Shown in pieces: positions 1,914 through 5,085 of a stretch of DNA of 35,633 nt; the first letter of the stretch is position 1, and every line of letters begins with the position of its first letter. Origin of the DNA: an uncultured SAR86 cluster bacterium (GTDB taxonomy: Bacteria > Pseudomonadota > Gammaproteobacteria > Magnimaribacterales > TMED112); NCBI GenBank assembly GCA_902610995.1, contig CACLXU010000009.1, forward strand, positions 1 through 35,633, given 5' to 3'. The position numbers and the translations under genes were made by a program. The notes beneath the pieces were generated by a model. The model saw only the letters and a list, made by a program, of their open reading frames with translations. It was not told the origin of the DNA and did not search any database.

Positions 1914-2997
1914 CTACTTCTCTCCAAACTCTAATTGTGTTGCCACCAAGTACTTTCCTTATTTCAGAAATAGAATAACCCCTTTTTAACATCTCGTTAA
2001 TTAAATTAGGAAAATAAGATACATCTTTTAAACCAGTTGGTAAGGTGTCGCCAACACCATCAAAGTCTGATCCAATTCCGATATGATCAATTCCAGCTAC
2101 TTCTACAGCCCTATCTATATGATCAACAACTTGTTCTACTGTTGCAAAGACGTTGTCTTCGGTTGGAGCTGCATCATTAGATCTAGATTTATCAATTATA
2201 AAGGACGAACCAAAATTAATATGCAATACACCTCCATTTCTTGCTAACTCAACCAGCATTTTGTCAGAAACGTTCCGTTCCCATCCTGGAGTAAAATGGC
2301 GCAAAGAAGAATGACTTGCTATTACAGGTGCCTTAGATAATTTTAATACCTCAAAAAATGCTTCATCTGATACATGTGATATATCAATCATCATTCCAAC
2401 ATCATTCATTTCTTGTATTAATGTTTTTCCAAATGGACTTAATCCACTCCATCTCTTGTTATCATCATATGATGAGTCACTTATGTGATTGCTCTTAGAA
2501 TGTGTAAGAGTGATATACCTTATGCCTCGTTCGTAAAAGTATTTTACTCGTTCAAGCTTACCCTCGAGAGGAGCACCATTTTCTATGCCTAATGCTATGC
2601 CGATCAAATTTTGTCCAGGTAAATTCCCAACATAGACATTGTCTTTGAGGATAAAAAATTTATCAGGTGAATCATCCACTACGGACTCCACCATATCAAT
2701 AAGCTCATTAGCTAATTCAAAACTTGTTTTATTTTTTTCTGTATCAGCAGGTAGATAGATTGAAAAGAATGGGATATTTAATCCTCCCTCCATTGCTTTA
2801 ACATAATCAAAATTCAAGGAGGTCAAACCAGATATATCCTCAAAATTTCCTGTTTGATCTAACTGGCTACGTAATCTATATGGAACGTCAATATGAGCAT
2901 CTACAATAAGAGATTCATTTGCTAGGACTTTTGGATCAACTGTTGTGTTGCATGAAGTGAGAATAAATATAACTGTAAAAATTACATATCTACTCAT
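1891..2997 (-). CDS. Membrane dipeptidase (peptidase M19), lipoprotein
   Basis: Zinc-dependent dipeptidase of the renal dipeptidase family, predicted to be a cell-envelope lipoprotein. I chose the ATG at 2995-2997 over one 45 bases upstream because it directly opens a lipoprotein signal peptide (MSRYVIFTVIFILTSC, lipobox LTSC, C16). Family motifs follow: VDAHIDVPYR (metal ligands H35, D37), GIALGIENGAPLEG (bridging glutamate), YITLTHSKSN, MMIDISHVSD, PVIASHSS and HIGIGSDFDGVG. At 368 residues it has the usual family length. Its start overlaps the end of the SDR gene by 8 bases, and its end overlaps the SnoaL-like gene. The likely role is cleaving dipeptides in the periplasm; the substrate is unknown. 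Confidence 0.92.
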   Translation of the reverse strand: MSRYVIFTVIFILTSCNTTVDPKVLANESLIVDAHIDVPYRLRSQLDQTGNFEDISGLTSLNFDYVKAMEGGLNIPFFSIYLPADTEKNKTSFELANELIDMVESVVDDSPDKFFILKDNVYVGNLPGQNLIGIALGIENGAPLEGKLERVKYFYERGIRYITLTHSKSNHISDSSYDDNKRWSGLSPFGKTLIQEMNDVGMMIDISHVSDEAFFEVLKLSKAPVIASHSSLRHFTPGWERNVSDKMLVELARNGGVLHINFGSSFIIDKSRSNDAAPTEDNVFATVEQVVDHIDRAVEVAGIDHIGIGSDFDGVGDTLPTGLKDVSYFPNLINEMLKRGYSISEIRKVLGGNTIRVWREVDEYARIN

Positions 2998-3781
2998 ACC
3001 TGCCACCTGCGACTTTATTGCCAATAAACTTAACCAACCCATTTGGCAGAAAACGCAACGTGTTCACTAAAAACTTATAGACTAATCCAGGTATAACAAT
3101 TTGTTTGTTTTTAAATAGGCCGTTTATTCCAGCTTCAGCAACATCGTCAGCTGACATTTTCATAAATGATGGTACTTTATCCATTTGCTTTTGTGTTCCA
3201 CTCACTGAGTGAAACTCAGTTACTGTGAAGCCTGGACACAAAGCAGTAGCATTAATATTTTCTCGGTTATAGGCAGCGTTAATTGCCTCTACAAACCTAT
3301 TCATAAATGTTTTTACAGGACCATAAAGTACAGCATATCTTGGAGAAGCTGGTGCAAACCCTGCAACTGATGAAACAACTAGTACTTTTCCACCTCCCCT
3401 TTTAATAAAATCTTTAAGGTAAAGTTTTGTTTGCATTATTACTGATAACCCTAATACTCGTAGACAATCTTCCTCATCATCAAGTGAAACTTCATGTAGG
3501 GTTTTATTATGTTGATATCCAGCATTAAGCACTAATATTTCGACATCTAGTTTAGTTTCCCTTGAGTAGTCATAGATTTCTTTTGGCGAATTTTTGTTTT
3601 TTAGGTCAGATTGAAGCACTTCTACATTTACATTAAATTTCTTTTCAATATCTAATGCAATCTCTTTTAATCTATCTATTCTTCTTGCTACAAGAAATAG
3701 ATCGTATCCCCTCTCTGCAAATTTATATGCTATTGATTTTCCTATACCGGCAGTTGGACCAGTTACTAATACTACTGACAT
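2990..3781 (-). CDS. Short-chain dehydrogenase/reductase (SDR)
   Basis: NAD(P)-dependent oxidoreductase with a Rossmann fold. The cofactor motif TGPTAGIG is at residues 7-14, NAG at 86-88, the catalytic serine in VVSS near 137, and the YxxxK pair as Y153 and K157. At 263 residues it is a classical SDR. The C-terminal FLVNTLRFLPNGLVKFIGNK suggests membrane association, as in some lipid-related SDRs, but the substrate cannot be read from sequence. A good Shine-Dalgarno (AAGGAG) lies 6-7 bases before the ATG. It is the first gene of the operon running to trpB. Confidence 0.92.
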   Translation of the reverse strand: MSVVLVTGPTAGIGKSIAYKFAERGYDLFLVARRIDRLKEIALDIEKKFNVNVEVLQSDLKNKNSPKEIYDYSRETKLDVEILVLNAGYQHNKTLHEVSLDDEEDCLRVLGLSVIMQTKLYLKDFIKRGGGKVLVVSSVAGFAPASPRYAVLYGPVKTFMNRFVEAINAAYNRENINATALCPGFTVTEFHSVSGTQKQMDKVPSFMKMSADDVAEAGINGLFKNKQIVIPGLVYKFLVNTLRFLPNGLVKFIGNKVAGGRYE

Positions 3782-3987: not shown

Positions 3988-4016
3988 TTGCAAATGTAAA
4001 TGCACTTTACTAAAGT
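3988..4016 (+). promoter_or_regulatory. Probable sigma-70 promoter of the pheA-upstream RNA
   Basis: TTGCAA at 3988-3993 (-35, four of six consensus bases) and TAAAGT at 4011-4016 (-10, four of six) are separated by 17 bases. Initiation is predicted near 4022-4024, at the left end of the structured stretch that ends in the terminator at 4217-4246. Confidence 0.45.
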
Positions 4017-4021
4017 AGATA

Positions 4022-4248
4022 TTACCTCAAGATAACCAGATCAGAAAGGGAACTGCAGAACCCAGAATGAAAAAGTTACTTAGGAAGAGAACAGAAAGGT
4101 GAAAGTTCTAGAAAGCTTAGCTAGCAATAAAGCGAACTAGACCACCGAGGATAAAAGAGATCTTATCCAAGGATGCAGAAGGTAATCTCACTTTTGACAC
4201 CTACTGATCTCGACTGAAAAAAACTGAGCTTGCTCAGTTTTTTTTTGT
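4022..4248 (+). ncRNA. Structured RNA of unknown family upstream of pheA (sRNA or leader)
   Basis: About 225 bases between a promoter-like sequence and an intrinsic terminator, with no convincing coding frame. Local hairpins: GGATAA (4149-4154) with TTATCC (4163-4168); GGTG/AGTTC (4098-4108) with GAACT/CACC (4134-4146); and GGG (4048-4050) with CCC around a CTGCAG core. Two long-range pairings cross: TTACCT (4022-4027) with AGGTAA (4180-4185), and AGATCAG (4038-4044) with CTGATCT (4204-4210). They would form a pseudoknot or two alternative states. Four GGA motifs are scattered through it, faintly like CsrA-titrating RNAs. It does not show the signatures of tmRNA, RNase P RNA, SRP RNA, T-boxes or 6S RNA. 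It could be a free sRNA or a pheA attenuator leader. Confidence 0.55.
4217..4246 (+). terminator. Intrinsic terminator 26 bases before pheA
   Basis: ACTGAG, loop CTTG, CTCAGT, flanked by seven A on the left and nine T on the right, is a textbook rho-independent terminator. It ends only 26 bases before the pheA start codon, so transcripts from the promoter near 4000 must read through it to express pheA. Confidence 0.9.
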
Positions 4249-4272
4249 CTTTAAAAACCTTACAATCCTTCA

Positions 4273-5085
4273 ATGAAAATTTATTTCTTAGGTCCGTTTG
4301 GCACTAATTCTGATCTTGCAGCACGTCATATTTTTAAAGCAACACAGTATAATTTCATTCCATTAAGATCAATTGAAGATATATTTGAAAAAGTTGCTCT
4401 TAGCCATACCTATTATGGAGTTATTCCTTTTGAAAACTCCTATCAAGGCGTTATAAATTCATCGCTAAACGGATTAATTGATTACGATCTAAAAATTACT
4501 AAAGAATTAAATTTTAAAATAATTCATTCATTCTGCTCTAAAAACGTTGCCATCAAAAATGTAACTAAAATTGCTTCTCATCCACAAGTATTTGGACAAT
4601 GTAACGATTGGTTGAAACGAAATTACCCAAATGCAGAAAAAGTTGTTTGTACAAGCACAGCAGAAGCAGCTGAAATGGCAAAACACGATTCATCTATATT
4701 CTGTATTGCAAATGACTATGCTAAAGACCTATTTGATTTGAATATGCATGAAACAAATATTCAAGATTCAGACAATAATGTAACTCGTTTTCTTGTCATT
4801 GGAAAAATGATTGAAAACAAGGGTAAAGACAATAAAACCTCAATTATGATAAATCTATCTGATAAACCTGGTTCTTTATTATCTATTTTGAAGCCCTTTG
4901 CTGAAAACGATATTAATATGACCAGAATTGAAACAAGACCATCAAGAAATAATGATTTTCAGCATACATTCTTCATAGATTTTGAAGGATATTATGAAGA
5001 TGATAAGGTAGCTGGACTTATTTCAACCTTAGAACAAATGTCAAAGGAATTGAGAATAATTGGATCTTACGAAATATTGTATTAA
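4273..5085 (+). CDS. pheA: Prephenate dehydratase, stand-alone with ACT domain
   Basis: Converts prephenate to phenylpyruvate for phenylalanine synthesis. The catalytic domain covers residues 1-180: GPFGTNSDLA, VIPFENSYQGVINSSL, SHPQVFGQC and NNVTRF with catalytic T171. The ACT domain (about 188-265) carries DKPGSLLSILKPF and RIETRPS, the phenylalanine-binding feedback site. There is no N-terminal chorismate mutase, whereas many gammaproteobacteria have a fused P-protein. The terminator just upstream leaves no room for a missing domain. No Shine-Dalgarno is visible. It overlaps the convergent hydrolase gene by 4 bases. Expression may depend on read-through of the upstream terminator. Confidence 0.94.
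   Translation: MKIYFLGPFGTNSDLAARHIFKATQYNFIPLRSIEDIFEKVALSHTYYGVIPFENSYQGVINSSLNGLIDYDLKITKELNFKIIHSFCSKNVAIKNVTKIASHPQVFGQCNDWLKRNYPNAEKVVCTSTAEAAEMAKHDSSIFCIANDYAKDLFDLNMHETNIQDSDNNVTRFLVIGKMIENKGKDNKTSIMINLSDKPGSLLSILKPFAENDINMTRIETRPSRNNDFQHTFFIDFEGYYEDDKVAGLISTLEQMSKELRIIGSYEILY

Follow-up and report, generated by a model that had tools for sequence, protein, structure and literature searches.

The window (the whole 35,633-nt stretch of DNA that was analysed) contains a non-coding gap at positions 3988-4272, bounded on one side by a minus-strand short-chain dehydrogenase-like gene (2990-3781) and on the other by plus-strand pheA (4273-5085). An earlier reading made from the sequence alone (the sequence-only reading) had described a strongly paired non-coding region here, with a promoter and a terminator of its own. 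The gap and its folding were borne out, as the minimum free energy is -65.7 kcal/mol (z -3.16) and none of 200 shuffled sequences was equally stable, and so was the plus-strand intrinsic terminator at 4216-4245, a 13-pair stem followed by a T run whose form is kept across all subfamilies. The plus-strand promoter at 3988-4016 (-35 element TTGCAA at 3988-3993, a 17-nt spacer and -10 element TAAAGT at 4011-4016) is weak, with 8 of 12 consensus bases when judged by eye and a score under the threshold of a simple scanner in the window; however, relatives carry a version closer to consensus at the same place (TTGACA...TAATAT or TATTAT), and there is a counterpart in every subfamily. Transcription is predicted to start near 4022-4024. 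We conclude, on sequence grounds, that the locus is a stand-alone RNA gene of about 225 nt with its own promoter and its own terminator.

It can be seen from an Infernal search against Rfam that plus-strand positions 4031-4223 match family RF02034 (IMES-1) over its full length (model positions 1-191 of 191), with a score of 116 bits against a gathering cut-off of 81 and an E-value of 1.8e-24; no other Rfam family came near its own cut-off in the gap. That the RNA is IMES-1 is close to certain. The sequence-only reading had called it unassigned, and had named a clear match to a known family in such a search as the outcome that would count against that view; RF02034 is such a match. Its statement that this is none of the well-known housekeeping RNAs does hold, as there is no 6S match at the locus and RNase P RNA is encoded separately in the genome.

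IMES-1 is an RNA of marine origin that is very highly abundant in metatranscriptomes, and its carriers prove to be SAR86 marine bacteria. Within the order, 128 of 203 genomes gave a match. A class-level sample of 369 genomes included four of the same order, and the remaining 365 lacked IMES-1; all three matching genomes were from the order, the fourth giving no match under stricter filters. In a phylum-level sample the RNA was found in the genome of the window alone and in none of 298 others. A pattern scan with one genome per species likewise returned mostly contigs labelled SAR86 cluster, TMED112 or unnamed Gammaproteobacteria. We conclude that, among the sampled genomes, IMES-1 is confined to the SAR86 group, the genomes without a match inside the order being in part accounted for by incompleteness and by one family (f4) having a different RNA, IMES-5, instead. 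Pattern matches also occurred on contigs labelled Pseudohongiella, Rhodobiaceae, Neomarinimicrobiota and Flavobacteriales (L132, L160, L166 and L197); those at L132, L160 and L166, with IMES-1-like sequence, are probably on mislabelled or misbinned SAR86 contigs, and two further matches (L178 and L204) are apparently due to chance. Several genomes of family f3 have two IMES-1 genes encoding very similar RNAs, some of them about 0.3 to 14 kb apart (L095, L096, L099, L101, L102, L103, L106 and L107). A literature search found no paper in which IMES-1 or IMES-5 is the name of an RNA, the 2009 source lying outside the scope of that search, and a paper on marine mdRNA-Seq does not mention SAR86. 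The RF02034 family is already catalogued; what this analysis adds is its confinement to SAR86 and the covarying self-complementary loops described below.

In the family to which the window belongs (f1), the RNA always stands between the dehydrogenase gene and pheA. In f2, IMES-1 has an electron-transfer flavoprotein dehydrogenase-like gene on one side and another conserved gene on the other, and it is found in f3 at several different places, sometimes in two copies (gene names in relatives are our by-eye reading of the sequences). Since the neighbours differ outside f1, and since the terminator separates the RNA from pheA, the association with pheA made in the sequence-only reading is incidental and we rejected the idea of a cis-regulatory leader. 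Apart from the closeness of pheA, the grounds for taking the RNA as either such a leader or a copy, since diverged, of 6S or RNase P housekeeping RNA are some short strings which, by eye, it has in common with RNase P RNA, namely GGGUGAAAG, AAGAG and CCACC..AAGG. We consider both possibilities extremely improbable, because RNase P RNA (306 bits) and a 6S-like RNA (G000:C10:17384-17555; 39 bits, under the cut-off of 46.4) each have a gene of their own elsewhere in the same genome, while the 6S family RF00013 has no match at the locus itself. The 6S-like RNAs of the genus score 31 to 45 bits against that Rfam cut-off and would thus be missed by standard annotation.

We found that 14 sequences of the genus support a common plus-strand fold. 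P1 pairs TAAC (4033-4036) with GTTA (4075-4078) and is 91% paired in these 14 rows; P2 lies inside it, with an outer part (4041-4043/4068-4070) that is 76% paired with changes on both sides and an inner part (4049-4050/4061-4062) that is 100% paired. The long P3 consists of GAGA (4087-4090/4208-4211), CAG (4092-4094/4204-4206) and AGGUG (4097-4101/4198-4202); it is 98.8% paired in the genus, where two of its pairs have changed on both sides, and it is also present in the single-sequence minimum free energy fold. The loop 2 hairpin (4107-4111/4137-4141 and 4115-4118/4130-4133) is 100% paired with compensatory changes in both helices. P4 (GGATAA/TTATCC, 4149-4168, loop 4155-4162) is 100% paired in the genus, with both-side changes at two pairs, and P5 (CAGAAG/CTTTTG, 4176-4196, loop 4182-4190) is 98.8% paired there. 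Taken as a whole the proposed fold is 97.6% paired in the 14 sequences, where slid versions reach 26 to 41%, and 15 of its pairs have changed on both sides; as the fold was drawn partly from the same sequences, the high level is biased upward, and the comparison with the slid versions has the same bias.

Loop 4 (GAGAU, 4157-4161) and loop 5 (AUCUC, 4185-4189) are complementary and invariant in the genus, and IMES-5 has other complementary pairs at the same two loops (GGGU/ACCC, CGGG/CCCG, AGGU/ACCU and UGGGU/ACCCA). From these comparisons the conserved crossing contact is that of loop 4 with loop 5. The RF02034 structure as printed by cmscan contains neither this pseudoknot, nor the GAGA/UCUC extension of P3, nor the covariation of loops 1 and 2. 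A further feature of loop 4 in the genus is the sequence AGATCT (4158-4163), which overlaps the contact with loop 5; it is invariant and self-complementary in 14 of 14 rows, and absent from other families.

The sequence-only reading had proposed two crossing stems, TTACCT/AGGTAA and AGATCAG/CTGATCT, forming a pseudoknot or a two-state switch. Both complementarities are present in the sequence and the RNA does contain a pseudoknot, but it is that of loops 4 and 5, and the pair counts in the genus and in other families disfavour the two stems as the conserved fold. The first is a feature of the genus only: it shows no compensatory change, is mismatched in 3 of 14 rows, and its partner GGTA is found in 11 of 14 rows of the genus and in 0 of 95 others. 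The second is 88.8% paired in the genus with some covariation, which it owes to a 3' strand common with P3 and to 5' strands that are near-repeats of each other; the conserved helix that uses this 3' strand is P3. A switch in which 4204-4211 alternates between P3 and a stem with 4038-4044 is suggested by just these near-repeated 5' strands, both of which covary with the one 3' strand. Such a switch may exist within the genus, but we judge it unlikely: one pair of the alternative stem fails to form in 6 of 14 rows and its other breaks affect fewer rows, the stem looks incomplete or missing in other families by eye, and it is less well supported than P3.

The evidence on which our main proposal rests comes from the apical loops. 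The loop 2 hexamer of the window, GCUAGC (plus strand, 4120-4125), is self-complementary, as is the hexamer at this position in every one of the 109 sequences, although it takes 12 different forms: seven form Watson-Crick pairs throughout (GCUAGC, GUCGAC, GCAUGC, GCCGGC, GGUACC, GUUAAC and GUAUAC) and five include G.U pairs (GUCGAU, GUCGGC, GUUGAC, GUGCAU and GUGCGC). At least 18 changes were inferred on a single RNA tree, which was built from the same alignment with the loop columns included; none of them breaks self-pairing, and double changes that replace both partners of a pair occur at positions 3/4 and 2/5. The hexamer columns were set within each family, as a MAFFT alignment of all sequences shifts loop 2 by about three columns between families. 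When the frame was slid by 1 to 6 bases as a control, at most 3 of the 109 rows were self-complementary. In 2000 shuffles the maximum was 60 of 109, and the chance estimate for all 18 inferred changes is log10 P -9.2; since such estimates assume random bases, and a product over the 12 hexamers assumes an independence that related sequences lack, we rely instead on the slid control and the pattern of changes. Loop 1 (CUGCAG, plus strand, 4053-4058, with AA on both flanks) behaves similarly across 113 sequences, 82 having CUGCAG and 31 CUCGAG (4 of these being IMES-5), with no other hexamer; with two states only, this covariation may reflect one or two events. Taken at the level of sequence, the evidence for selection on loop self-complementarity is very strong.

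Neighbouring bases of one loop cannot pair together, and their covariation therefore points to pairing between two molecules. Pairing of loops 1 and 2 in cis, or with another RNA instead of themselves, seems to us distinctly unlikely. No conserved cis partner was found for the loop 2 hexamer, with 85 of the 109 rows having a complement of at most 4 nt elsewhere, and another RNA as partner would need to follow the hexamer through all 12 of its forms, while the self-complementarity of each was left without a reason; in f2, coexisting IMES-1 and IMES-5 both have CUCGAG in loop 1, and the two RNAs could pair with each other there. Still less likely, in our view, is a monomeric IMES-1 whose palindromic loops are the footprint of symmetric protein binding, or of a palindromic DNA site in the gene. 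The hexamers are indeed often perfect DNA palindromes (for example GCTAGC, GTCGAC and GGTACC), but 32 of the 109 rows need G.U pairs and so form no DNA palindrome, a tolerance that favours RNA pairing over a DNA dyad; moreover the hexamer is part of an apical loop, the stem that closes this loop covaries, and 12 hexamers at one site argue against a sequence-specific reader. We infer that IMES-1 probably homo-oligomerises through two symmetric kissing loops, one at loop 1 and one at loop 2. Self-complementarity is itself silent on affinity, and some hexamers, such as GUUGAC (-2.6 kcal/mol) and GUUAAC (-3.4 kcal/mol), would pair weakly.

A model built from weak IMES-1 matches picked up, in families f2 and f4, an RNA that is related but shorter. 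We rejected this RNA as a new family since Rfam already holds it as IMES-5 (RF02995); the region of the window gives no match to RF02995 even at an E-value of 10. Like IMES-1, IMES-5 has P1, P2 with loop 1 (ACUCGAGA), a long P3 and the pseudoknot of loops 4 and 5, but it is shorter and lacks the loop 2 hairpin, and the two belong to no common Rfam clan. One IMES-5 scores 34 bits against the IMES-1 model, and from the common architecture we infer that the two RNAs are of common descent. In f2 genomes where both have been placed on one contig, about 13 to 14 kb separates them and their strands are opposite. Loop 1 of IMES-5 is CUCGAG in 47 of 48 cases. The single exception (genome G045, 3001-3170, L278) has a broken palindrome, CUAGAG, which may be an assembly error.

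In the mechanism that we propose, IMES-1, the non-coding product of a gene of its own in marine bacteria of the SAR86 group, would act in trans. It folds into P1 to P5 and the pseudoknot of loops 4 and 5, and would present loops 1 and 2 at its apices, each ready to pair with its counterpart on a second molecule. Self-association through these two symmetric kissing loops would give dimers or, if loops 1 and 2 contact different partners, chains or closed assemblies, and the assembly would be the working form of the RNA. Because each molecule would have two symmetric kissing loops that work independently, larger assemblies made of RNA only, in the form of chains, rings or cages, are conceivable, as is co-assembly with IMES-5 through its CUCGAG loop 1 where both RNAs are present; we put these forward as speculation that is rather less likely to be right than wrong. 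As to what the assembly does, a structural scaffold or a sequestration particle would be our guess.

The layout of the loops resembles that of the HIV-1 dimerisation initiation site, an element of viral genome packaging in which a 6-nt self-complementary sequence with purine flanks lies in an apical loop; no homology is claimed. A loop with a covarying self-complementary sequence is a feature of natural homo-oligomeric RNAs, and loop 2 of IMES-1, with 12 hexamers and 109 of 109 rows, is such a loop. Our argument from covariation is of the same kind as that for the L9.3 kissing loop of OLE and the L21a kissing loop of GOLLD, which have been seen by cryo-EM and are supported by covariance at adjacent loop bases (PMC12286853). 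IMES-1 would share symmetric kissing loops with the homo-oligomeric RNA-only complexes OLE, ROOL and GOLLD, but those RNAs are much larger, their oligomers have been seen by cryo-EM whereas ours is predicted, and no sequence relation is claimed. To our knowledge, natural RNA-only complexes have so far come from large, ornate RNAs; if IMES-1 oligomerises, they would extend to a compact system of about 225 nt in abundant ocean bacteria. For an RNA catalogued without a function, the assignment to SAR86, the presence where Hfq, ProQ and CsrA were not found and the strong evidence from evolution of self-association together give a cheaply testable lead on its role.

No regulatory action dependent on Hfq, ProQ or CsrA would be expected of such an RNA. 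Neither Hfq nor ProQ was found in any of 10 genomes searched (that of the window, which is 80% complete, and nine with a completeness of at least 92%), which disfavours an sRNA dependent on either chaperone. Of 202 genomes, 63 gave a CsrA match and every one of these belongs to f2 or f4, with no match in the genus of the window or in families f1 and f3, and a CsrA-sequestering RNA of the CsrB kind is thereby also disfavoured. As IMES-1 is present where these proteins were not found, it most likely works without Hfq, ProQ and CsrA in f1 and f3. IMES-5 and CsrA both occur in f2 and f4 (48 and 63 genomes respectively, 42 having both) and neither occurs in f1 or f3; a link between them is possible, although the overlap may reflect shared ancestry. 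IMES-5 contains 1 to 6 GGA triplets, and the counts in IMES-1 are similar.
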